This document shows positions 6,894-41,721 of a stretch of 64,000 nt of DNA, in pieces (the first letter of the stretch is position 1; every line of letters starts with the position of its first letter). The notes beneath the pieces are model-generated. The model made no database searches. It was not told the origin of the DNA and saw only the letters and a list, made by a program, of their open reading frames with translations. Both the position numbers and the translations under genes were made by a program. Source of the stretch: Hydractinia symbiolongicarpus (Eukaryota; Cnidaria; Hydrozoa; Anthoathecata; Hydractiniidae); NCBI RefSeq assembly GCF_029227915.1, contig NC_079889.1, positions 7,130,001 through 7,194,000 of the forward strand, given 5' to 3'.

Positions 6894-8657
<1,764 letters not shown>

Positions 8658-15250: not shown

Positions 15251-17030
15251 AGAAAATGAGCCCACAGCTTTCAGCAAAAATTATAACAAAAGTAGATTAT
15301 AAAAATTATTTACCAAACTGTAATTTCCAAATGCGAAACTCGATTTTGTCAACAAAAGAGTTACAATGTGCGTTCAAAAGCTTAAAAAGAAACAAATCTC
15401 CTGTACATGACGACATTAATAGCAATGTTCTCATAGATTTATTTTCAGCTATTGAAAATGTGCTTCACAATGTTTTTAAAAAATCAATATCACAAAGGAT
15501 ATTTTCTGACAAACTGAAACAAGCAAAAGTGATTCCAATATTTAAATCAGGTAATTCAGAAACGATGTCAAATTACAGGCCTATTTTCATTCTACCCGTA
15601 TTCTCAAAGATTCTAGAAAAAATTATGCACAACAGAGTTTTTCGCTTCTTCACCGATAATTCTATCTTTTGTAAGAAACAATTTGGATTTAGAAAAAGAC
15701 ACTCCACAGAACATGCGATAATGCAACTTGTGGAGGACATTCATCAATGTTTTAGTGATATAGTAAATTTACTTTGGGTATTTTTATTGACCTATCTAAG
15801 GCTTTTGATACCGTTGATCAAAACATATTATTAGGTAAACTGAATGCGTATGAAATAAGTGGGGTAACATTAAAATGGTTTAAAAGTTATCTGAGTGAAC
15901 GATCATAAAACATAGATATTGGCAGTGACAAAAAAATTAATGAGCTAACAATTAAATGTGATGTTCCACAAGGTTTAATTCTTGGGTCACTCTTATTTTT
16001 AATATACGTTAATGATCTAAGCAATTGTTTGCATTGTGTTTGCAGATGACACCAATTTGTTTTACTCCCATAAATGTATTAATGCTCTTTTTAAAACTGT
16101 AAATACGGAGTTAAACAAATTATCGAACTAGTTCTCTGCTTATAAATTATCACTAAATATAAAAAACAAAGTATACGTTATTCCACACACCACAAAGAAG
16201 AAAGGACTTGCCCATTGACCTACCTAAACTGGAAATAGAAGGAAATCAAATTTCACGGGAGATAACCACTAAATTCTTAGATGTGATACTTGATGAAAAT
16301 TTAAAGTGGCAACAACACATATCTATGGTAAATTTAAATGTTTCAAAATCTATTGGCATCCTTTATAAATCACGTAACTTTCTAAACAGACAATCTCTAA
16401 TACAATTGTATTACTCTTTTATACACAGTCATATTAATAACGCTAACATAGTTTGGGGTAGCATTAATAAAACTAAAATACAGTCACTTTACCTTCATCA
16501 AAAACATGCTGTAAGAATAATCACTTTTAAAGATAGGCTAACTCATTCCAGACCATTACTTCAGTCAATGAAAGCCTTGAATGTATTTCAACTAAGTATC
16601 TTTCAAACACTTTGTTTCATGTACAAAGCAAAAAATAATAACACACCTGAAGTATTTTCTAACATCTTTACATTTCTCATAACAAATACACAACAAGATC
16701 TGCAGGTTAATACTATCCACCATTTAAGAAAACTAAAAACAGTCAATTCTCCATTTCGTACCGCGGACCACACATTTTGAATAGCTTTAACAAAATTAAG
16801 AAGTCAATTTTTGTATCTACTTTGGACAACATATTTCGATGTAAATTGAAAAATCTACTTTTATTTGAATTAGAAAGCGAAACGTCTTTCTTCTAATTTG
16901 AATTCCTTCTCCTTAATTTTAATTTCATTTTCATTTTTTTAATTTCAGTATACTTTTGTTATTCACACATAGCTATATCGATTAGGATGTATTTGTTGTT
17001 AATAAACTTGTTTGTACCGTTCAACAGTAA
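15245..17030 (+). pseudogene. Non-LTR retrotransposon (LINE) reverse transcriptase, 5'-truncated and broken
   Basis: 15256-15780 encodes the first half of a LINE RT (KRNKSPVHDDI, NYRPIFILPVFSKILEK, QFGFRKRHSTEHAI). After a frameshift near 15770 follow an [11 protein letters not shown]-type motif, VPQG near 15970 and the catalytic FADD at about 16039-16050. 16208-16780 encodes the C-terminal thumb-side region. Frameshifts and stops occur at about 15905, 16130 and 16215. The upstream endonuclease is absent, as expected of 5' truncation. An AATAAA near 17000 may mark the 3' end. It is inserted in the 5' part of the Polinton polymerase. Jockey/RTE-like is my best guess. Confidence 0.85.
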
Positions 17031-19503: not shown

Positions 19504-20549
19504 TTACAATGTCAGGAGTTTTAAATTAAACAGAGAGTATCTTGGATGGCAAGGCACAACTGAAAATAAATGTTTCTCGACTTTAAGCACCATTTTATTT
19601 GTGATGTCGAACGATACATTGACAAATGTGGTACAGTTGAACAGTTGTTTCGCAAGATCATCTTCACTATCTAATGTTAAGTCAAGCACCTCCTTCAATT
19701 CATGTACCTGATCGTTTTTAAAGAAAAGTGGCAAACATTGATTCGTCTCAACATCGGAAATGAGTAAATTTAACGACCACATTGAGACACATGCTGTTGA
19801 TAAAATTGTGCAGTTACATTTATCACAGTGGACACTTTTTTCAGTAGCAGCTGTAGTTCTCCTGTTGCAACTTGGACACAGAAGGAGTTGTACCACCTTG
19901 GAAACACCAATTATCTTCCCTATTATTGTAGAACTGGTCAATGTTGACTCATTGTCAGCAGTTGTACAAGGCTTCTTAAATGCACTCTTTTCTTCGAACT
20001 GAAATTTTTCCGCTAATGTAGTGTTTAGGTAGTAATTACCTCTGAAAACATGCAAACGCAGGTTTTTCAGAAGGTATGTCTTTCCAACCGATAAACTATT
20101 TACATCATTGCCATACAAGAACAGTTTTCTACATTGATTGGTATCTCGAACTAAATATTCCTGCTTGTCAATAGGGCCACCTTTTGTTTGGTGTGTCACT
20201 ACTTTCATAAATTTAGCAACTTCAACTTGTGTGTTAACCAGTTGGCCGCTTGCAAGAGTGTTCATTTCCTGCAAAGTGACCACTGCATTTTTCACCAAAT
20301 TTGAATTGTGCGGAAAAGAAACCATTTGAGAATCAAGTAACTTAACTTTTGTTGAATCATTGAGAACGATGTCTTCTCTGGAATGAGTAAATTTGCTGAT
20401 TTTCACTGACGACTTGGCATCCATTATTTCGCCAAATATTTTCCGTTTAGTGGGCGAGAAGCAGACTGCTTTTTTCGAAGATTTCTCCATCTGAAGAAGG
20501 CAATTGAAGTACTGTGCACCATTAGTCGAAGCTTTTTTCACCGGACTGA
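19504..20549 (-). CDS. RPA-like ssDNA-binding protein, 3' exon
   Basis: About 348 codons, beginning after a pyrimidine-rich tract and CAG acceptor and ending at 19504, with a possible AATAAA on the minus strand near 19259. The product begins VSPVKKAS and reads as consecutive beta-rich segments compatible with OB folds. A zinc-ribbon motif (C-x2-C-x13-C-x2-C, about 19806-19880) resembles that of RPA70's C-terminal domain. A role in binding single-stranded DNA is inferred from this resemblance. I associate similar sequences with multicopy cnidarian proteins. No frame damage is visible. Residues upstream of the acceptor in the same open frame are probably intronic. It may be a host gene or a domesticated transposon gene. 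Confidence 0.6.
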
Positions 20550-20589
20550 CTGCATGTATGAAGCAAATAGTTAAAAAAAAGGCAAACAA

Positions 20590-21277: not shown

Positions 21278-21282
21278 GCCTA

Positions 21283-21463
21283 CAATCATGGCCAAAACCT
21301 TTGGAATTTTCTGTCAAATCTACCTTTCCCCCTTTCCCCCATGTACAAAGTTGAGATAAGCAGCTGGCCTTGTTTCAACATCAACTTTGTAGCTGGGGGA
21401 AAGGGGGGCTAGCTAGATTATGTCAATATTGTGTAGAATTTCATAAGGTTTTGGCCATGATTG
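21283..21463 (+). repeat. Left terminal hairpin repeat
   Basis: 181 bases. The first and last 19 bases are perfect inverted repeats (CAATCATGGCCAAAACCTT and complement). Further pairing occurs through the CCCCCTTTCCCCC tract and TACAAAGTTGA. The two halves differ enough to define an orientation. It is about 98-99% identical to 24853-25033 in the same orientation. Confidence 0.9.
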
Positions 21464-21519
21464 TCTGCAGTGCAGAAGAAACAAGAATTGGCCTAAAATA
21501 TAGCAATACACATATTTTT

Positions 21520-21721
21520 TTTGAACACATGCTCCCACACCAACACAAACTCATCCAGCATGGGCACAGCCTCATTCTGGTGCCGTTTTTTGATTACTAG
21601 CCTCATTCTCGTGCTATTTTTTGATTCCCAGCCTCATTCTGATGAAAAATGTAAACAAACCAAAGTCTAAGGCTGTAGAAGGTATCATGGTGATTCAGCT
21701 GTGTTGGTGCATGTGTTCAAA
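21520..21721. repeat. Inverted repeat enclosing tandem 31-bp repeats (origin-like)
   Basis: The left arm (21520-21547, TTTGAACACATGC then ACCAACACA after a 5-base insertion) pairs with the right arm (21700-21721). Between them lie two and a half copies of a 31-bp direct repeat starting AGCCTCATTCT (21568, 21599, 21630). It lies about 150 bases upstream of the Rep start. The arrangement resembles iterons of Rep-driven origins; that function is inferred. Confidence 0.6.
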
Positions 21722-21808
21722 GTTACTAGGGGGTCTTTCACTGCTAAATTTGTGTCTTTAACACGTTGAAAGGTACTAGGTAACAGATTTTGCTGAAAAT
21801 ATGTACAG

Positions 21809-21830
21809 TATATAACCAGAAATATATAAA
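21809..21830 (+). promoter_or_regulatory. TATA boxes of the Rep gene
   Basis: TATATAA at 21809 and TATATAAA at 21823, 43-64 bases upstream of the Rep ATG. A plausible core promoter for a short leader. Confidence 0.4.
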
Positions 21831-21872
21831 TTACACTCTACATACAGCTATAAACAACAAAACAGAAGAAAA

Positions 21873-23160
21873 ATGTCCTTGTCCTCAGACCAACGTAGTG
21901 TTTACTTGATTACGTATAGCCATGCAGATCCCGCAAAAGTGGATAGCAGAGAGAAATTCGCAGGCATTTGGGTTGATGTGTTTGGCACGGATCTTGTCAA
22001 ACAGTGGGTGTGTTCCTGTGAAAAACATAGAAATGATGATGCTGTACACTATCATCTCGCCTTGAAACTGAAAAGGGTGAAGCGATGGAAAATCGTTCGG
22101 GAGCAGGTTATTCGTAATCAAGAGATTGTTTGCAATTTTCAAGAGTTTCACACAAATTATTATGACGCGCATAGTTATGTAACTAAAGAGGACTTAGATT
22201 ATGTTACTTCAGAGGGCCATCCTATGCTCGCAAACTCACCTCAAACGAAAAAAGCATCAATAGCAAAAAGAGCAAGAGTAGTAGGTTCTGCATTAGATTT
22301 GCGCGTACGTCCAGCTCAACAAAATAAGAAGCGACAGCGGCTTGACGCAGTGACTGTTTACGACATAATATTAGAAAACAATATTCATAACGAACGCGAA
22401 CTATTTGTGTTGGCTTATTCACAAAAGGAAGAGGGGAAAACTGACCTGTTAGAGTACGTACTAAAAATTTCAGACAAACGGAGGGCAGAATTAATTAGAA
22501 CGGCATGGCGGATCGAAAATTCAACAAAGGAAAGTGAACGTTTGAAGCAAACAAACATGGAAATACTTGAAAAGGCGACAGAGAATCAGTGTGTTTGCTA
22601 CGGGCAGTGGAGTATTCACGCTATAGAAACTCTACATGAAAATAACATAGACATTGAACATTTCAAAACAGCAATAAAAAACGCAATACAACACGGTCGT
22701 AAAAAAAAAAAACAATGTGATAATCGTAGGTCCATCCAATTGTGGAAAAACATTCCTGTTACAACCAATCACAGAAATATTGAAATGTTTCGTTTCGCCA
22801 GCAACAGGGACATTTGCCTGGGTGGGAGCAGAAAGCGCGGAATTAATTTTTCTTAACGATTTTAGGTGGACCGAGAAGTTAATGCCATGGTCTGATTTTT
22901 TAAATTTGCTTGAAGGCCTTCCAGTACATTTGCCGGAACCAAAGACACACTTCGCAGAAGACATCTTGTGGACCAGAAAAACACCGATATTGGCTACCTC
23001 CAGTATGCGAATTCGCAAATATGATGGTGGTGTTGTGAATGATATTGAGACAGGTATGATGGATACACGGTGGAGGTATTTTGAATTTGTCAAGCCTATT
23101 ATGAACCCAAAAGAAATCAAACCTTGTCCCTGTTGCTTTGCAAACCTGATTCTCGGTTGA
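21873..23160 (+). CDS. rep: HUH-endonuclease/SF3-helicase replication protein (one frameshift)
   Basis: The ATG at 21873 starts a clean frame. Residues about 10-19 (VYLITYSHAD) form Rep motif 1, HYH at 59-61 is the metal-binding HUH motif, and YVTK (Tyr102, Lys105) is the single-tyrosine nicking motif. After a run of 12 As (22701-22712) the frame changes. The following frame, to 23160, is an SF3 helicase with Walker A GPSNCGKT, Walker B IFLNDF and an ILATSS sensor region. With 11 As the whole would be about 428 residues. Such proteins nick an origin and unwind DNA for rolling-circle or rolling-hairpin replication. The family resembles uncharacterised Reps I associate with corals and anemones, between CRESS-DNA and parvovirus types. 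The A-run change may be mutation, slippage or sequencing error. Confidence 0.85.
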
Positions 23161-23173
23161 CATTGTAATGTGA

Positions 23174-23260
23174 ACGGTTCACGCCCGTGAACCGTCAAAA
23201 TATAATAATAAAAGAAATATTATTTTTTTTATATAACGACGGTTCACACCCGTGAACCGT
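23174..23260. terminator. Twin hairpins between convergent rep and transposase genes
   Basis: Two near-identical 22-bp inverted repeats, ACGGTTCACG-CC-CGTGAACCGT at 23174-23195 and one with a single change at 23239-23260. The AT-rich stretch between them contains AATAAA near 23205. They start 14 bases after the rep stop and lie about 200 bases from the transposase stop. They may act as a bidirectional 3'-end signal or a Rep-binding site. Confidence 0.5.
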
Positions 23261-23461
23261 TTCTGTTAAACTTACAAAGCTATTTTATCCTGTATTGGTT
23301 TTGTTATATATGTTATGTTCTTATATAAACATGATATAAAAAGGTATGTACAAAACAGAAGTTGATGCACAAATACAGCATCACCAAAACAACAAGAAAA
23401 CTCTAAATGGGCAGTTTCAAAACAAAACAAACACACTTTTGTCTTATCCAAGGGGTGTCTG

Positions 23462-24591
23462 CTAATATTTTGTTCTTATTCCTTTATATTTGATTATCAT
23501 ATCCAGACGTTTCGGCATAGATTCAATTGTACGGTTTATCACGTCAGCTGGAAAGTTCACAATGGTACGTTTTACTCTTCTGCAGAACTGTTCGTAGCTT
23601 TCCTTTGTGATGCCAGTGTCTATTGCCTCCTTTTTCAATTGCTTACCGACCAAGTGAAACACATTTTCTATTGGATTCAAGTCTGGGGATGGAGCAGGTA
23701 TCTTAAATAATCTACACCCTATATCCTCCATTGCAGCACGTGCAAGGGCACTGTTTTGGGATGGATCCCCATCTTGCAAAAATAACATACCTCTTTGGTT
23801 TGCTGATTTTGCGAACATATTTGGAAAATGCTCACGGATGAAGGTTGCGCACATTTCTGCATTTACATTTCCTGTGTAGTGATGGCATTTGATAGTGCCA
23901 GCTCCATAAGAAATTGCGACCATGAATCTTGCTACTTTGCCTCCAACGCCTTCTTTTTTTCCTTTCGCAGTGCAATGACGACTTAAACTTTCACCATGTT
24001 TCCTTCATGTCCTTGAACGCAGGGTGCGCGCATGTTGACTGGGATTAGTTTTGTGTACCCACGATGTACCATCCAAATAAAATGCGATTCCCTCCTTCCA
24101 AAAAGTAGACGGTAATCGTTTACATCTTCGAGCAAATTTCAACCGTTCGCTCAAGTCTTTTTTAGACAATTGTCCTTTACGCCGACACTGTGCATATGTG
24201 TATCCCATTTCGTGTAAATACCTTCCAACAGTTCTAACAGTTCAGTTGATATGTCTTTAGTTGATATACACGCTTCATGCTGGATGTCAGTCGAGCAGAA
24301 ATTTCCTTCGGTTTCCCGTAATTTCAATAGTGAAGCAACTATTTTTCTTTTGTCTCTGTCGGTGCCTTTACGAGGACGGCCACCACAATTCTTTTTCGTT
24401 GTGTTTATGTTAGCAGCAGGAATCGCTGCCACAGGTTTTTTCATGTGTCTGTAAATTGTTGTTCGAGAGTACTGTGGGTACAGTGTCTGTAGGTGGGCCA
24501 ACGTTTCACCCTTCTCTTGGTGAAGGTACCGCAAAACCAAAGATACCGCCTGTGGCATCGGTTCACGTTGATTTTTTGTTTTTGTTGTCAT
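23462..24591 (-). pseudogene. Tc1-like DD34E transposase, one frameshift and one stop
   Basis: From ATG 24591 the N-terminus has a helix-turn-helix of Tc1/IS630 type (YSRTTIYRHMKKP) and a basic RPRKG linker. The catalytic residues follow: first Asp in FYLDGTSW (about 24090), second in LQDGDPSQN (about 23770), and Glu in DLNPIENVF, with 34 residues between the second Asp and the Glu. A frameshift near 24240 separates the N-terminal part from the rest, and a TGA at 24005-24007 interrupts the catalytic domain where Trp is usual. Otherwise full length (about 375 codons). It lies inside the Rep element and is antisense to rep. It could alternatively be a separate insertion, but no private terminal repeats were seen around it. 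Confidence 0.88.
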
Positions 24592-24852
24592 TTTTTTTTC
24601 AGCTGTAAAAGAAAGGAAAATAGTATTATACAGTAAAGTTCATATCATTGTTATGTACATGTACATTCGTTTGTTTACCTACAATATACAGAAGCCTAGG
24701 AACTAGAGTGTTATTCACTTAGAACTATTCCGGTTAAGAAGCACCCCACACTTCCCTGTCTCACACGAAAATAAGTAAAACTTATGTTTCAGGGCAACCC
24801 ATCTTCTTTATTAAGGATATTAGTATATGTCAACACAGTAACATTTTGCAGA

Positions 24853-25033
24853 CAATCATGGCCAAAACCTTTGGAATTTTCTGTCAAATCTACCTTTCCC
24901 CCTTTTTCCCATGTACAAAGTTGAGATAAGCAGCTGGCCTTGTTTCAACATCAACTTTGTAGCTGGGGGGAAGGGGGGCTAGCTAGATTATGTCAATATT
25001 GTGTAGAATTTCATAAGGTTTTGGCCATGATTG
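24853..25033 (+). repeat. Right terminal hairpin repeat
   Basis: 181 bases, direct-orientation copy of the left terminal repeat, although its flanking bases are inverted relative to those of the left copy. Only a few bases differ, in the C-tract and G-tract. Confidence 0.9.
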
Positions 25034-25154
25034 TAGGCCGCTAGAATAAGTACAAGGATATCTCAAATGAAACACTTAGTTTACTTCGCACTCAAAAAAT
25101 CTTAAGAGTCAATCAACAAAATTTGTCACAATAACCAGAGAAACAAAAGCTTAC

Positions 25155-29677: not shown

Positions 29678-31206
29678 TTATAGCAGGGTGATAGTTATAG
29701 AATTTTCAGTCTGATCGATACATTCTACTGGATTCAATATATTCTCAGTTCTAAGCCTTTCATATTCATCTGTTACACTTGGATCTGCTTTGATGGCTGA
29801 TGATTTGTACAAGCCAGTCAAATACATCCCTTCTGTTGATGTTACTCTGCTTAATGCAACATACATCTGTCCACATTTGAACCCTCTTTGACGTTCTAGA
29901 TCGAAACTTACAACTGCTTTTTGTAGGCTCAATCCTTGAACCTTATGAATTGTACATGCCCATGCAAGCATTAAAGGAAACTGTGTTCTTTTTATTACAG
30001 GAGAAGAAGGTTTATTAGTCTTCAAAATAATATCAACAGATATTTTGCTAATAGGCACTAAACCAAGTTGTTTACCATAATTATCTTTTTTAGAAGCATT
30101 ATTTCCAGCCTTGGAATCATCAAATTTAACGTAAATTTTCACTACATTTCCTTCAGTGTTGGAAACCACTTTTTTAACTGTGCCAACCTGGCCATTAATT
30201 AATCGATCTTCAATGTCTACATTTGATGTCAACATAACTCTTGAATCTACTTTTATCATCAACACTGCTGTGAGTCCACCTGTTTCACTTTGACTTTTGT
30301 TCAAAACATTATTAATTTGTGCACGTGAAACATTTTTGGGCATTCTATCCAATGCAACAACATTATACAAGGTGTTATTGTTTTTTTTCAGCATATCTTC
30401 GTTGTGTTTCTTTGCAGGAGAATTCTCTGCGAATATATGAAGAGCATCATTGGGATAATTTGGATCAGTAGAAGCAATAAAGCGCGATTTAAGTAAATTT
30501 TCACACTGAGGATCAACATTTCCTGTTCTCACTTTATTCAATACATCAATTAGAGAACTGTCACCTTTTTGTCTCATAACTTCCTCCAGTTCAGCCAACT
30601 GGAACTTTCTCCATAAAAGGTCAACATTTTGCATGACATTATTACCATTGTACAATGCATATACAGGTGCTGCTTTTATGGGTGGTAGTTGATATAAATC
30701 ACCCGAAAATAGTACACTAATTCCAGCAAATGGCATTTCTGGAGGACAACCAAATATTTCTACAAGACGTTGATGTATGTAAAGTAACAGTTTGTTTGAA
30801 ACCATTGATACCTCATCTATTATGATCAATTGAACTTCTGAAAGATTATTTCTCAAAGTAGACCTTTTTTGATCAGTTAGCCTGGGTACAGTCTTGCCAA
30901 AAACATTTATAGGTATTTTCAATCCAGAGTGGATTGTATTTCCATTTATATTAATAGCAGCAATGCCAGTGGGGGCTAACAACAAAACCCGAGGTTTTTC
31001 AGGATCCTTACCACGATAACTAATAGTTCTCGTAACTGATTGAAAAAGAGTATTAATCAGATGTGATTTTCCACATCCAGCTTTTCCAGTTAAAAAATGT
31101 ATAATGGTTCATTTTTTTGTCTAACTTGTGAATTTCGATTTTTGACCAAATCTCTTGCCCATTTATTTACTACATTAAAAATTAATCTTTGAATTTTATT
31201 CAATGA
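29678..31206 (-). CDS. Helitron PIF1-like helicase domain
   Basis: Open in the same frame as Rep immediately after its TGA. The segment begins with LNKIQRLIFN, as in other RepHel proteins. Walker A is FLTGKAGCGKS (about 31063-31095), followed by APTGIAA, the Walker B IIIDEVSM, FSGDLYQLPP, the arginine-rich region, WACTIHKVQG and YVALSRV at the C-terminus. All core SF1B motifs are present. It ends at 29678 through a probable frameshift near 29690, after which the endonuclease frame follows. It unwinds DNA behind the Rep nick. Confidence 0.9.
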
Positions 31207-34200
31207 TCATATCAGACTATTCAATTCGTCATCACCAAGAAAAGTAGGAGTTATTGATAAAGATGATGTATTGTTATTATTCTGTATTTTATCTGAATCG
31301 TCATCATCATCGTCGATATCCTTTTCTAACATTTCTGTTGCAGCCAGCATTTGCTCTACTTCGTCATTTTCCTGTTGAGAAAAGGCATCAGGATTTTGCA
31401 TCAAATCACTACGAAGATTATTTAAAGCAGTTTCTACCAATTCTCCGTATGGCTGAATAATTTGTTTGTTGCAGTTAACTATATCCAGAACTCCAGGCTC
31501 ATACAGTTTTTCCATGTAAGTGCCAGATCCCTGTCCTTTCAATTCAGATTCATTTCGAAACGGATAGTACATGAACAAATGATGGTGCGCAAAACCTTCA
31601 GGATGTTTATCTATTTTTGGACAATGCATTCTTAAAACAGCTTTAACTTTTCTACATGATAGGGTTACCTTTGATGACATTAAAGGAACAGTTTTAGGTA
31701 GTAAAGGAGATGAATGATTTTCCTCCATTAGGTCATCTACTAAAACCTCAGGTTGGTTATCATTTTGGGAATCATTTGGCTTTGATTTAACGTAATAATT
31801 AGCTAAAAATTGTGCGTAACAAAATGTATCAATAATACGGTATTTTCCACCCTTGAAATTCGTATCAGGTCTATCCATATATCTGTCTATCATATTATGC
31901 TTGAATACATCAATACTGTCCTCGGGTAATTCTTTAATTTCATCTACCGAACGTAAAATTCGGTAACGATTTTGTGGAATATTAGTATTAGCAAATGTAA
32001 CACCGGGACATGTTTTTCTCAACCATAGTTCAGGCATGATATGGTAAACTGCTTCTTGAACTGAACATTCTCTTTTCGTTGAATATGCCCTAGCGATATC
32101 TTTCATTAGTTCAAATTTACTTTTCTGTAATTCCTTTGCTTCTGTGGCAGCATGTTTCATCGCTTCAGAGGTTTCATCTTCAGATTTGGAAAAATAAGCA
32201 CACATGTAAGTCACAGCCTTGTAATGGTTGAAAACAGGTTGAATGTCTAAATTAGCTTCCCACGCCATCAGGCCTTCGATGAAATAATTGTTTACAAAAC
32301 ATGAATTTGGTGGCCGCTTCAAATGCAACTGAAATTCGTTATCAGAAAATATAGTTAGCTTGTTATAATATTCATGTTCGGTGATACCAAGTTTTGCTAA
32401 AATAGTTGGTATATGATCTAATTGACAAAAGCCTTCTTTCTCAGGATTTAAGAAATTGACTTTAAAAGGATTCAGATTTTCATCAATGTATGTTTTGACC
32501 TTTCCTAGCAATTTTTCTCTTTGCTCTAATATTCTTGATTTCATTTTTTCATCCATGTCAACTGTTAGAGGTTCAGCAACAATAGTTTTTGCTGTAAAAA
32601 ACTTTCCAAATGAATACCTACAGGGAATGTTCTTGTATTTTCGACATGATTTTGAATGGGCGTAGATTTGAAATGTTTTAACAAGATTATGTAATTCCTC
32701 ATTTTCCTCAGCATCAGGTATGTTAGCCTTAATGATGGCATCTACAAAATCAATATACTCCTGCTTATTTTCCTTGGACAACTTTGGGGCACCTATAACC
32801 CATAGAAATGAATGTATATTAAGGCTTCCTCTAAATTGAAACTCAACCCTGATAGCATAATAAGTGACTTTCCCTAGCGGACCATTTATAACAATCTCTT
32901 TGAAAAACACTTCAACTCGATATTGAAAATGTTTTGCCATGAACACTGGATCCATATTCAATATATCACATCGCCCACGATAGGATAAATTATCTAAGTC
33001 TTCTTCAGTGATAGTGCCACCACTTAATTTCAAAATTATTTTCACTAATTCATTCCAACGTAGATCAGCGCAAGAGAGTGTCATAAAAAATGTTGGCAAT
33101 CCCAACTGTTTCACCATTGCTAGAATTTCTAGAAGGAATCTTTTCCAATATGCTGGTGTTCCCTTGATCGTGTTCATAAAATGAAATCCTTCATCTGCTG
33201 CAATGAATGAACTTACATTTTCCTTGAAATTAGAGGATAGCATGCCAGCTGTCGACCCCTTGCCTTTAACCTTTTTTAAAGCTATATTTATTTGACTGGA
33301 AAGCTGCATTTGCTGAAGAACAGAATGTGCAAAAAATATGTAATCTATATCTGATGCAAAGCGCCTTTTGTAATTCAATAATCGTTGATTAAAATATTTA
33401 CTTGCACTCAAACGTACATCACGTTCTACATTGTAACCAAAATGTCCATGGGGAAACAGATATGGAAAGGCCAATTCCTCACATTGTTTGTCCAGTAATA
33501 TGCCCAAAGGCTTATTTCCTTCACCTTGAGCTATTACTACGTTTTCCTCAGAAACTACATGAGGTATGTTGGACACCAACACGATATCCGATGAACTTGC
33601 ACGCATTTCATCTAGGGGATTTTCCTGCTCCTCTATTGGAGTATCAATAGACTCAGCTTCATTGACATCATCCTTACCACTAAGTTCTTCTTCGCATGTA
33701 TCTTCCCTATGACTTAGTTCTACAGGTATATTGTCAATTGAAATAATAACATCATTATATAGGGGGTTATTCGATATCAAAAACTGTAATGCAGCTTGTA
33801 TATAGTCAGGTCGGACAGCCTGAAAATGTGAATGTCCACGATAACTAATTTTGCGTTTGAGTTTAAGCGTTATAATTCCATTGCTGTCAGCTCCTCTAGG
33901 CAATACTTTAGCTACCTCACTAACATTTATAGGTACATTACATACAGCTCCTTTGATTTTTGGCATTTGTCCTTTAGGCATGATTATAACTTTTGTAAAA
34001 AGCATCCTTTTTGCAATGAGGATTCGCTCTAATTCATTCAGTGACGACAATTCTAGTGGTTGGATATTCACAGTCAATTTATTCCACGATGCCTGGCAAG
34101 GTGTTTTTCCCTTCAAAAGCTTCTTATGGCATGTTTTGCACACATGGTAGTTGGAGTCGTAACTTTCCACAAGCATAGTGTGGATTTCTACATCAATTAA

Positions 34201-34413
34201 ATAGCGGTTAGCATCATAGAGAACAACAGAATCCCTGTAATGAAGTCTCTCACAACAAACACAAATGTAAAATGGCCCTTCAGAAATTTTACACTTGAAT
34301 GCTTCAATTCTATCTTGCATCCTATTTTTTTCTCTATATACTGCCTTAGCTATACGATTCGATTCTTTTACCTTTTTATGTTTTGTTGAATTTTTTATTT
34401 GCTCACGGTACAA
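31207..34413 (-). CDS. Helitron replication initiator (Rep), catalytic histidine altered
   Basis: 1068 codons. N-terminal cysteine-rich region (CVCCERLHY, CKTCHKKLLKGKTPC), then the Helitron_like_N region (FFMTLSCADLRWNEL). The HUH position reads RGSLNIHSFLW, where family members have Pro-His in place of Leu-Asn, so the first catalytic His is Asn532 (codon 32818-32820). The tyrosine motif YMCAYFSK (Tyr736, Tyr740) is intact. The frame ends in a TGA at 31207-31209, but the same frame continues open into the helicase. Rep would nick and join DNA strands during rolling-circle transposition. The altered His suggests this copy is inactive. The first codon is TTG; the true start is probably upstream, in the peptidase block. 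Confidence 0.9.
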   Translation of the reverse strand: MYREQIKNSTKHKKVKESNRIAKAVYREKNRMQDRIEAFKCKISEGPFYICVCCERLHYRDSVVLYDANRYLIDVEIHTMLVESYDSNYHVCKTCHKKLLKGKTPCQASWNKLTVNIQPLELSSLNELERILIAKRMLFTKVIIMPKGQMPKIKGAVCNVPINVSEVAKVLPRGADSNGIITLKLKRKISYRGHSHFQAVRPDYIQAALQFLISNNPLYNDVIISIDNIPVELSHREDTCEEELSGKDDVNEAESIDTPIEEQENPLDEMRASSSDIVLVSNIPHVVSEENVVIAQGEGNKPLGILLDKQCEELAFPYLFPHGHFGYNVERDVRLSASKYFNQRLLNYKRRFASDIDYIFFAHSVLQQMQLSSQINIALKKVKGKGSTAGMLSSNFKENVSSFIAADEGFHFMNTIKGTPAYWKRFLLEILAMVKQLGLPTFFMTLSCADLRWNELVKIILKLSGGTITEEDLDNLSYRGRCDILNMDPVFMAKHFQYRVEVFFKEIVINGPLGKVTYYAIRVEFQFRGSLNIHSFLWVIGAPKLSKENKQEYIDFVDAIIKANIPDAEENEELHNLVKTFQIYAHSKSCRKYKNIPCRYSFGKFFTAKTIVAEPLTVDMDEKMKSRILEQREKLLGKVKTYIDENLNPFKVNFLNPEKEGFCQLDHIPTILAKLGITEHEYYNKLTIFSDNEFQLHLKRPPNSCFVNNYFIEGLMAWEANLDIQPVFNHYKAVTYMCAYFSKSEDETSEAMKHAATEAKELQKSKFELMKDIARAYSTKRECSVQEAVYHIMPELWLRKTCPGVTFANTNIPQNRYRILRSVDEIKELPEDSIDVFKHNMIDRYMDRPDTNFKGGKYRIIDTFCYAQFLANYYVKSKPNDSQNDNQPEVLVDDLMEENHSSPLLPKTVPLMSSKVTLSCRKVKAVLRMHCPKIDKHPEGFAHHHLFMYYPFRNESELKGQGSGTYMEKLYEPGVLDIVNCNKQIIQPYGELVETALNNLRSDLMQNPDAFSQQENDEVEQMLAATEMLEKDIDDDDDDSDKIQNNNNTSSLSITPTFLGDDELNSLI

Positions 34414-35309
34414 TTTTTCCGTTTTGAATCAGGTGTAGTCATATTAGTATTACTGGTTTCAGAGCCAATTTTCAATATCCTAGTAAATTGCACTTCATAC
34501 TGCAAAGGTGTCCCTTGTGTTAAAGGCAAATACGTTGAACAAATGTATTTTTCCACTTGTAGCAATGAGGAGAATTTGAGCAAAACTGAAGTACCAGTAT
34601 TATTATTTGGTATAGACCCATCTTGATCACGACAATGTGGATCAAATAAAAAATAATTCTTTTTAGTCCATAAAACTCCCACCGTAAATCCGCCAATTAT
34701 TAATAATAAGCCATCACCTACATCATCATTTCTGGATCCAAATAAAGTTGTTAAAAATCTTTCATTTGGGGACTGAATATAACCTATTTCATTGTGCAAC
34801 ATTTGTACATCGAAGTTGTTATCAGCAAAATCAATAACAGTAGGGAGTTCAGGAATGGAAAGTGGTCCTGTGACATTTAGTATACAATATATTTCATTAC
34901 CTTTGGTTAGAATAAGATCTAAATCATGTGCGGTCCATAAAGCAACACGGCGATGTGTACTTAAAGCTATAGAAAACAAACAATTACATAAGCACTGCAA
35001 ACCAGCAGAAATTCCGAACTTTACGTCACCCTGATGAGAAGATGCCTTGACAGTTTTTAAAACATTGTATGTTCCAGGACCAGGGTTACTCTCAACATCA
35101 CCTGCTTGGGCAAGCAAGAGGAGTTTGATCTTGCACAATGTAATCATCAAAATTATTGCAAGGCCTAATAGTTGTACTACCACGTCCCGAAAGCCATAGT
35201 TTTGCACAAGTTCACCAGCATTTTGCGCAATCTTTTTCATCCGACTAGCATTTTTGCATGTACCATAAAAGGCACCAATTGCAGATCTGTAGGCTTCTAT
35301 TGATATCAT
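34395..35309 (-). CDS. Helentron N-terminal protein: 2A peptide and cysteine-peptidase-like domain
   Basis: The ATG at 35309 opens 304 codons. Residues 42-67 are hydrophobic. The canonical 2A motif DVESNPGP follows at residues 71-78 (35076-35099); ribosomes would skip between Gly77 and Pro78. The rest resembles the papain-fold peptidase domains of transposon polyproteins (herpes-tegument/C76-like), with GLQCLCN (Cys106) and FDPH (His225) as candidate catalytic residues and a C-terminal VLLKFSSL segment. The frame ends 18 bases inside the Rep frame. A 5-A run at the junction (about 34412-34418) would join the two frames if it had six As. The 2A is certain as a motif; the peptidase call is inference. 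Confidence 0.75.
   Translation of the reverse strand: MISIEAYRSAIGAFYGTCKNASRMKKIAQNAGELVQNYGFRDVVVQLLGLAIILMITLCKIKLLLLAQAGDVESNPGPGTYNVLKTVKASSHQGDVKFGISAGLQCLCNCLFSIALSTHRRVALWTAHDLDLILTKGNEIYCILNVTGPLSIPELPTVIDFADNNFDVQMLHNEIGYIQSPNERFLTTLFGSRNDDVGDGLLLIIGGFTVGVLWTKKNYFLFDPHCRDQDGSIPNNNTGTSVLLKFSSLLQVEKYICSTYLPLTQGTPLQYEVQFTRILKIGSETSNTNMTTPDSKRKNCTVSK
35076..35099 (-). other. 2A ribosome-skipping motif
   Basis: Encodes DVESNPGP, matching the D(V/I)ExNPGP consensus exactly and preceded by a hydrophobic, leucine-rich stretch as in active 2A peptides. It would separate about 77 N-terminal residues from the peptidase-RepHel part. Confidence 0.88.
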
Positions 35310-39730: not shown

Positions 39731-40790
39731 CTATTGTTTATCTCCTTCATCAAGGGATACGTTGTTGAAATTAATTGGAGGTAATTTTATGTCAAGTGCA
39801 GTACAGATTGTCAAAAGTGGTTTTACGCTACGTGGAACTATTATTTTAGCATATGTGTTAGCAGTGCATATATCAGCAAACAATGGATCAGCTCTTGTGT
39901 TTAATTTATTGATCAATAATTCCAAGTCAGGCAGAAAACTTTTGTCAATAAAGGGTGAAGGTTTCTTGATTTCTTTTGCTTTTCTACTTTCCAAGGATAG
40001 AATTTCACAGTTGCAACAACACAATTCTTGTTTTGTGTGTTTGAAGCCAAAATAATTTTGTAAAAAACTTCTTAAACAAGTTGTCAAGTCACAAAATTCT
40101 TTCATATGCTGGTCAACATTTTTTTTATTCGTTGAAATGTCTGAATTATTGTAATACAATATTGCTTCTGCTGGTTGACCACGTCGGGCTGCCCGTCCAA
40201 TTTCTTGAATGTACGATTCAATGTTGGACGGGGGAGAAATATGTATAATCTTCATGACAAATGGTGTGTTGACACCCATACCAAGTGCTGTAGTGGCAAA
40301 AATTATTCTTATTCTAGAGTTTTCACGTTTTATTTCTTCTAAAATAGTTGTTTTCATTAACTTTGTTTGTGGTGAGTGATACTGATTAAAAAGTCGAGAA
40401 GATGGATGTTTTTTATGATCAACATATTGATCCTCACCCAATATTCTTTCAAACAATCTGTATGCATAGGCACAATATTTTAACTTTAAATAAATAATTG
40501 TCATAGGGCAGTTTTGTTTTTTGTGCTTTAACTCTGTTGCGATAGGTAGTAATATATCCTCATATCCTGCTAAACCTTTGCAATTACTCATTCTTATTTC
40601 TTTTTTTAAAAAAATGCTTTTACGATTTGGATTTGCAGTAACCACTTTGCAATTTTCTATTTTCAAAGCTTTTTTTAAGTTACGTAATTTCGTTGGTGAA
40701 GCAGTTGCAGTCAAAGCTAACATGATACTGTGAGGGAAGAATGCTTGTAAAACTGATAAGTTTTGAAATTCTGTACGAAATTCTTCACCC
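39731..40790 (-). CDS. RecQ-like helicase, exon 2
   Basis: It begins after a TTATATCTAG acceptor at 40791 and completes the split Trp codon of exon 1, then WGEEFRTEFQNL, as expected behind a RecQ DEAH box. Motif III is LALTATAS, motif IV TIIYLK, motif V IIFATTALGMGVNTP and motif VI QEIGRAARRGQ. A cysteine cluster (CCCNCE) is all that remains of an RQC zinc region. The protein ends at 39731, giving about 535 residues in total, shorter than cellular RecQ, with no HRDC. No frame damage was seen. Lying inside a TIR/TSD-bounded element, it is likely a transposon-borne helicase. Confidence 0.85.
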
Positions 40791-41043
40791 CTAGATATAA
40801 CATACAGTAATTCATCAATTTTTTAGCTTAACTGTATTATGGTGATAAATTTATATTATTCAATTATTATAGCTTTACATATACATATATTTTGTTTGTG
40901 AAACTTTTTCAAATGGATATATAATATATATTAGTTTGTTTATATATATTTAGTTGCTATATTTAAGGCATATTATTTTTATAATAGCTATGTATGTAGA
41001 TTTTATGTTATACAAAGAAAACTAGCTAGCTAGCTATACTCAC

Positions 41044-41588
41044 CATAATTCCAAACAATGCGCCTCGTCTATCACACAAGCCACAACATTTTCCTCATAA
41101 ATTTTTGATCGTAATATCTTCCTTCCCTGATCTGATAACAGTGACTCTAGATGTGCAAATAAAATTTTACATTTGCCTGCAACAATGCTTTTTGAAATTT
41201 TAAAAACAGAATTTGATGCATCATTCAAATCTTCCTCAAGCAAGGGTTCGTATCTCTGGCTATTAGCTTGGTCTTCGAGTTGTAAGAAACCACATTCAAT
41301 GCCTACTTTACTTAAATTTACTAACTGATCTTGAATAATTGATGTTAAAGGAGAGACAACAAGTACAATATTGCCTGCCTTTCGTTCTGGAACAAAGTTG
41401 GGTAAAAGTTGATAAATTAACGATTTACCAAACCCAGTAGGCAAAACAGCTATAACGTGGTGTCCTTCTCCTAAATACTCGAAACATTGAACTTGTTTTG
41501 GTTTCAAAATAAACGAGGGCAACGTTTCATACTTTTCGAAAACATTATTCAGCCGCTTGAAAACACGTACCACATCTTCCCAGCCCAT
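41044..41588 (-). CDS. RecQ-like helicase, exon 1
   Basis: The ATG at 41588 starts MGWEDVVRVFKRLN. Q-motif-like LKPKQVQCFEYL, Walker A LPTGFGKSLIYQ, motif Ia VVSPLTSIIQDQ and DEAH box VIDEAHCLEL follow. The exon ends at an ATG|GTGAGT donor at 41044; the 253-base intron (40791-41043) has GT...AG borders and contains AT-rich sequence. A perfect palindrome, ATGAACCAGA...TCTGGTTCAT, lies about 45 bases upstream of the ATG. Confidence 0.85.
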
Positions 41589-41721
41589 CGCCAAAATCGT
41601 AAATATGCAGAATTTGCATGAATTAAAAATGAACCAGAATCTGGTTCATTTGATGCCCACGTGACCAGCCTGTGCCAGCGCCTTTTCGACGCCACGGTAA
41701 AAGGTGCTGGGGTCGAGCTTG

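Follow-up and report, generated by a model that had tools for sequence, protein, structure and literature searches.

A mobile element of Hydractinia symbiolongicarpus that carries both a Rep gene and a Tc1-type transposase gene

Cut-and-paste transposons rely on host replication to increase their copy number. Helitrons, which are also eukaryotic elements with an HUH endonuclease and a helicase, join Rep to a Pif1-type helicase and have neither a DDE transposase nor a target duplication. The nearest published precedent we found for an element with both kinds of gene comes from the truffle Tuber melanosporum, where the excerpted text of one report describes a geminivirus-like Rep transposon that has Rep and transposase open reading frames (ORFs) and is interspersed in the genome (Liu et al. 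2011, PMC3198968). Here we describe an element in a 64,000-nucleotide stretch of the cnidarian Hydractinia symbiolongicarpus (assembly GCF_029227915.1, contig NC_079889.1, positions 7,130,001 to 7,194,000), which we call the window. The element is 3751 bp long, at 21283..25033 of the window, and has a rep gene on the plus strand and a Tc1-type transposase gene on the minus strand. We are nearly certain that this is a single element with both genes, and the pairing of rep with transposase is a trait of its family, which we will call Rep-Tc1. No description of such a family was found in the open-licence literature, a body of text that does not include Repbase.

The window element and the Tuber element are alike in that a Rep of the single-stranded DNA (ssDNA) virus type and a transposase ORF share one element in a eukaryote genome. 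The Tuber element, as the excerpts of PMC3198968 present it, is fungal, has a geminivirus-like Rep and inverted ends of 37 bp, and lacks an obvious target duplication, whereas the window element has 181-bp palindromic direct repeats, a TA duplication at CTAG, a convergent Tc1-type transposase, inter-gene palindromes and tandem arrays. In the same excerpts, DENSOV_HM (Repbase) is presented as a virus-like element integrated in Hydra, a repeat with a parvovirus/papillomavirus-like Rep. By that description it resembles our element in being a repetitive sequence of this kind in a hydrozoan, and differs in that no transposase is mentioned. The RepE1 cressviruses have a papillomavirus E1-related Rep, cnidarian data and high-copy integrations in common with it, but in the excerpts of their report they carry capsid genes and no transposase is mentioned (PMC11071296). 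Teratorn is also a cut-and-paste transposon fused with viral replication genes, but its excerpted description gives a piggyBac element joined to a herpesvirus genome, 180 kb in all (PMC10175614). Tc1/mariner elements such as Sleeping Beauty share the HTH_Tnp_Tc3_2 and DDE_3 domains (seen in an open relative on contig C12), the DD34E triad and the TA duplication; unlike them, the window element has an added rep, a 181-bp palindromic repeat at each end and a CTAG target at nearly all edges seen. Two other candidate affiliations were rejected. Helitron membership fails because the helicase here is of SF3 type and TA is duplicated, and the coral CMITEs have TTAA targets and belong with piggyBac in the portion of their report we cite (PMC2872659).

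The ends of the element can be placed to the base. Two direct repeats, each 183 nt long (21282-21464 and 24852-25034), are 98% identical, and trimming them to CAATC...GATTG leaves 181 bp each, at 21283..21463 on the left and 24853..25033 on the right (both plus strand, the orientation of the whole element being taken from rep). Each repeat is itself palindromic, with outer arms of 28 nt and inner arms of 27 nt, and as ssDNA the left one folds much more stably than 200 shuffles of it (z -10.6). The outermost 32 nt of the two ends are inverted and 91% complementary, yet each end is a full palindrome. The bases TA stand outside the repeats at 21281..21282, in a CTAG target, and at 25034..25035 (neither has a strand). 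Three unoccupied copies of the flanks elsewhere in the genome read TTGTAGCCTAGGCCGC with a single TA (CTAG); the left-side match is short in these sites, 13-24 bases, and all three agree. Since the empty sites have one TA and the filled site has two, the element runs from CAATC to GATTG and is flanked by a TA duplication. Related units stand on contigs C4 (two in tandem), C11 and C1. An earlier reading of the window, the first-pass annotation, had reported two 181-bp terminal repeats with TA on both outer sides, and its coordinates for the element are exact.

The inner edges of the repeats are conserved as well, and they lack TA. They read CTG on the left (21465..21467) and CAG on the right (24849..24851; no strand for either). 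Across several subfamilies the inner edge is CAG|ACAATC at 21/21 ends and the outer edge CTA at 15/15, in a hand-listed count of readable edges that omits the degraded inner edge of C1_b, the palindromes of L034 and L045, and the right end of the C12 element. Solo repeats have outer edges CT/AG in 11 of 14 cases, or 12 with the right end of the C10 solo, which is truncated, included.

The pairing of the two genes across the genome carries our argument. We searched 480.9 Mb in 76 contigs with both proteins. All 97 of 97 Rep candidates were scored, which gave 88 matches, and the best 150 of 196 transposase candidates were scored, which gave 150 matches. The matches group into 66 rep units at 45 loci and, among those best 150 of 196, 132 transposase units at 79 loci. 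A transposase lies within 4 kb downstream of rep, always convergent, in 48 of the 66 rep units and at 35 of the 45 rep loci, against a chance expectation of 0.026 rep loci with a convergent transposase. Of 16 genomic copies of the 183-bp repeat, seven are solo, and the other nine form the boundaries of five full units, which stand at four loci. The four full units other than the window element, at three loci, all have rep, hairpins and transposase as it does, and the two on C4 form a tandem pair in which the middle repeat is common to both. One relative on C12 has both genes open, with a rep frame of 436 aa, a transposase frame of 385 aa and other sequence between them. The first-pass annotation had named co-occurrence of both genes between the same ends in many copies as support for its reading, and this is what we find; the opposite outcome that it named, copies with either gene but never both, does not describe this genome, where copies with both genes are the rule. 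The one transposase-only array examined, also on C12, has lost rep by deletion and retains the ends. At C7:4282138 the first of two tandem rep units (L042) has no downstream transposase match and the second (L043) has one.

The layout of the window element is also as first described: rep ORFs at 21873-23160 on the plus strand, transposase ORFs at 23462-24591 on the minus strand, and hairpins between them. The C-terminal part of the transposase (23462..23923) matches DDE_3 at 2.5e-10 and holds the second D and the E of DD34E, with 34 residues between them by eye on the translation. The first catalytic D (YLDG, by eye) is in a separate middle piece at 24005..24208, which has a weak match to HTH_Tnp_Tc3_2 (E 0.085). 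The N-terminal DNA-binding part at 24151..24591 is recognised from the ORF translation and its C4 counterpart, which shares 57% identity with the N-terminus of the transposase that is open on C12. That open relative matches HTH_Tnp_Tc3_2 at 8.9e-11 and DDE_3 at 2e-10, and SB100X is the sole PDB match with an E of 0.1 or below. Three features of IS630-Tc1-mariner are found, namely a helix-turn-helix (HTH) with DDE_3, the HTH of the window copy being itself weak, the DD34E triad, and TA target duplication, read from empty sites for the window element and for the C12 array. Judged by its transposase and its target duplication, the element belongs to IS630-Tc1-mariner. A transposase with its own ends inside the element was considered and rejected: no inverted 15-mer (at least 13 of 15 bases) joins 23161-23480 to 24551-24851, contrary to the nested arrangement that the first-pass annotation had raised against its own reading.

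The window rep lies in two frames. One ORF holds the HUH endonuclease part (21873..22856, HYH and YVTKED motifs by eye), and the SF3 helicase part follows in another frame (22717..23160, Walker A GPSNCGKT by eye). Neither piece reaches a Pfam cut-off, so the HUH-SF3 class of the window rep rests on its relatives, in which HUH and tyrosine motifs in a Rep endonuclease fold and an SF3 AAA+ helicase are both found; with that basis the claim of an HUH-SF3 Rep holds. Some relatives match the viral profiles Parvo_NS1 and PPV_E1_C above cut-offs (P0015 at 2.6e-6, and L044 with PPV_E1_C at 1.2e-6). The predicted structure of one relative's Rep resembles a CRESS-type HUH domain joined to a helicase of the adeno-associated virus (AAV)/papillomavirus type, the structural comparison being a VIA-align second look in which a missed fold cannot appear. 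The catalytic motifs of Rep are kept across large divergence. Between the convergent genes, at 23173..23261 (no strand), are the 22-nt palindrome ACGGTTCACGCCCGTGAACCGT and a near copy of it, with a folding z of -7.2, and we take this pair as the candidate Rep origin. Iterated inverted repeats stand between the genes at seven of eight other loci inspected (L031, L034, L036, L043, L044, L045 and L054), and their sequence varies by subfamily. Short tandem repeats with a 31-bp period (families D2 and D3) lie upstream of rep at 21567..21644 on the plus strand.

The association of the modules is old. Convergent gene order is kept in subfamilies whose Reps differ from the window Rep at about 60% of positions, and palindromic end repeats starting ACAATC recur in those subfamilies. 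Rep and transposase distances correlate with r 0.81 over 13 pairs, four of which are from other organisms and are joined only by identical carrier-sequence sizes (33805, 15355, 7842 and 4335); with one pair per subfamily r is 0.75 (28/20000 permutations). Among relatives in other organisms (the best 120 of 584 for Rep and the best 120 of 823 for the transposase, P0103 left out), size coincidences of Rep and transposase homologues exceed shifted controls (119 transposase rows used), and these coinciding carrier sizes suggest that the pairing extends beyond this species. A scan of prokaryote genomes with short patterns gave no relative. Between subfamilies synonymous sites are saturated and nonsynonymous divergence (dN) is 0.30-0.46 in three comparisons. 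In close copies the ratio of nonsynonymous to synonymous divergence (dN/dS) is 0.23 for the transposases of C9 and C7 and 0.30 for rep between the C1 array and C4. Read from these divergences, the two modules are long co-resident. The first-pass annotation had framed the element as either a hybrid with replication and transposition modules or a Rep replicon mobilised by a captured Tc1 system. The shared core of that proposal, one element with both modules, stands; the sequences would fit either form, and co-residence does not decide the order in which the modules came.

Members of the family also occur in tandem. A rep array on C15 has 12 units with a period of about 3978 bp and a left edge of CTA, and ten of its loci are 99.5-100% identical to L046, one of them over 2636 bases only. 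Another on C1 has six units at about 6.96 kb with a last gap of 9.7 kb, and its unit reads as enlarged by a DIRS-like insertion. Among the best 150 of 196 candidates, transposase units recur every 2752 bp or so on C12 and on C1, and roughly every 2735 bp on C13. The C12 array unit derives from the C15 subfamily by deletion of rep and retains the transposase (a 386-aa frame), the repeat and the inter-gene palindrome. This array (2213153-2234799, 21.6 kb, eight transposase matches of which one is partial) has outer edges CTA and TAG and lies in host sequence that reads by eye as an ORF of a long interspersed nuclear element. Five empty copies match all 200 bases of its joined flanks (printed identity 100%) and at least two further empty copies span the junction, so the 21.6-kb array occupies a single TA site as a block. 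This adds a second subfamily to the TA duplications at empty sites, which the first-pass annotation had named as a check. A C1 array at 26.35 Mb also has outer edges CTA and TAG. Some of the arrays are recent. Helitrons served as the single control family, and among the best 150 of 435 candidates they gave one same-strand pair within 10 kb among 146 units; here 150 of 151 listed matches were typed, those within 1500 bases of each other were joined into one unit, and with a pair defined as less than 10 kb apart larger repeats would be missed.

Two of the C1 arrays have internal features of their own. At C1:26348004-26378155, 2752-bp units are followed by shorter ones in pairs, of about 1972 and 1862 bp, a pattern that resembles deletions arising one after another and each then being repeated. 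At C1:25564738-25571750 (L036 and L058) an apparent DIRS-like retroelement, identified by eye, sits inside a Rep-Tc1 unit; its start is also present in L035, and similar spacing suggests that other units of the same array carry it. Cargo genes in the 6.96-kb unit were considered and rejected, the extra ORFs reading by eye as this DIRS-like retroelement.

We think it likely that the window element is a degraded member of a Rep-Tc1 transposon family with two engines, a transposase that would excise and insert the element and a Rep that would amplify the excised form. That the transposase does the integration is very probable, and that Rep replicates the element is probable. The transposase would recognise the outer repeat ends beside TA, excise the element and paste it into CTAG. 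Because the inner ends have CAG in place of TA, they would be poor cutting sites and so protected, and the whole unit would move. An excised or recombined circle would carry one repeat. Rep would nick the inter-gene palindrome as its origin, the variation of that sequence among subfamilies being what a Rep-specific site should show, and the circle would be copied into head-to-tail concatemers sharing single repeats. Monomers or concatemers would then be inserted by the transposase, the latter as blocks, and rep-less derivatives with the repeat and palindrome could be served in trans. Through this second gene the element would work like a Rep replicon. Whether the arrays are mainly Rep products is a question on which we are evenly divided. 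The broadest version of the idea, an ancient animal transposon lineage with a two-stage cycle of Tc1-type excision and insertion, Rep-made concatemers pasted as multi-unit blocks, and rep-less satellites, has in our opinion about an even chance of being right.

A number of observations weigh against the two-engine reading. Both rep and transposase are broken in the window copy. A partner was not found at 10 of the 45 rep loci and 44 of the 79 transposase loci (the latter among the best 150 of 196 candidates), absences that are not firm since only the best candidates were scored in both searches. No inter-gene palindrome was seen in L041, one of the eight loci inspected, and the repeat-like palindromes of L034 and L045 are without CTA or CAG edges. 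Pairs from this genome alone correlate weakly (r 0.31, 308/5040), and C7 and C9 combine a window-like transposase with a distant Rep, which looks like a module swap, so that modules may be exchanged. For rep, C9 (a broken copy) and C7 give a dN/dS of 0.99. At the right end of the C15 array the last unit, L044, aligns with L046 along just 2636 of 3873 bases, and no terminal repeat is seen there. The edge pieces of the C1 26.35-Mb array share 94-97% identity with the C12 unit, and inside this array units shortened to 1.86-1.97 kb adjoin each other. Array edges of this kind would also be expected from monomer insertion followed by unequal crossing-over, and the circles and their replication are proposed from sequence.

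These points bear most on the main rival, in which the transposase alone moves the element, Rep is kept for another job (donor-gap repair or copying, or regulation), and arrays arise by unequal crossing-over or segmental duplication. Crossing-over would readily act on direct terminal repeats, and the seven solo repeats exist. Each of the C12 and C1 26.35-Mb arrays is bounded by a single CTA/TAG pair, as from a monomer that was inserted and grew later; shortened units are mixed within one array, and because the edge pieces of C1 and C12 differ by 3-6% the two arrays were not copied from a single fresh concatemer. Yet there are several arrays, and with C15 units at 99.5-100% identity and the C12 empty-site flanks at 100%, growth under this rival must be fast at several sites. 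The single same-strand pair among 146 Helitron units, from the best 150 of 435 candidates, and the retention of Rep catalytic motifs over large divergence also count against it, and we regard it as possible but rather unlikely.

Another rival is that the element is an endogenous ssDNA virus, akin to the RepE1 cressviruses or the parvoviruses, which acquired a Tc1-type transposase by capture and remains infectious elsewhere. Sea anemone data are reported to contain RepE1 cressviruses that have capsid genes and are integrated at high copy number, as far as the excerpts of that study go (PMC11071296), and the Parvo_NS1 and PPV_E1_C matches of P0015 and L044 fit such a source. The ORF list of the window element, however, has no capsid-like ORF, the largest other frame being 188 aa and antisense to rep, and in this respect the window copy does not qualify as a parvovirus or cressvirus proper. 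No relative was found in two scans of viral contigs based on short patterns. We consider the viral explanation improbable. Chance nesting of an ordinary Tc1 element in a Rep replicon, or the reverse, gains something from the modules of other elements that do occur inside some copies (DIRS-like in the C1 array, by eye). It is refuted, unless the counts are wrong, by the 35 convergent loci where 0.026 are expected; the tested stretches show no inverted ends around the transposase alone, and homologues of the two genes coincide on equal-sized sequences in other organisms. We give it next to no chance.

If the two-engine reading is right, an element with its own replication initiator would break the dependence of cut-and-paste transposons on host replication, and would be a functioning intermediate form that links transposons to small viruses encoding a Rep. 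Among the high-copy cnidarian sequences classed as "endogenous" RepE1 or parvovirus-like, some may then be transposons and not viral fossils, and the Rep-Tc1 family would give Rep genes a straightforward way to integrate repeatedly and at high copy number, as reported from cnidarian genomes.

The rest of the window holds several unrelated features. A 361-aa ORF with a CxxC zinc-finger-like stretch lies 0.7 kb to the left of the element (19504-20589, minus strand) and has no Pfam match at 0.001. Reverse transcriptase remains (RVT_1), probably from an element without long terminal repeats, are at 15256-15834 on the plus strand, and a long simple repeat at 6895-7992 reads as a (DRQT)n ORF that is probably non-coding. 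To the right, Helitron remains at 29678-35309 on the minus strand include Helitron_like_N (C15:7162809-7163396) and a PIF1-type helicase ORF. Pieces of a helicase gene in separate frames, with DEAD, Helicase_C and weak RecQ zinc-binding matches, lie at 39731-41594 on the minus strand.

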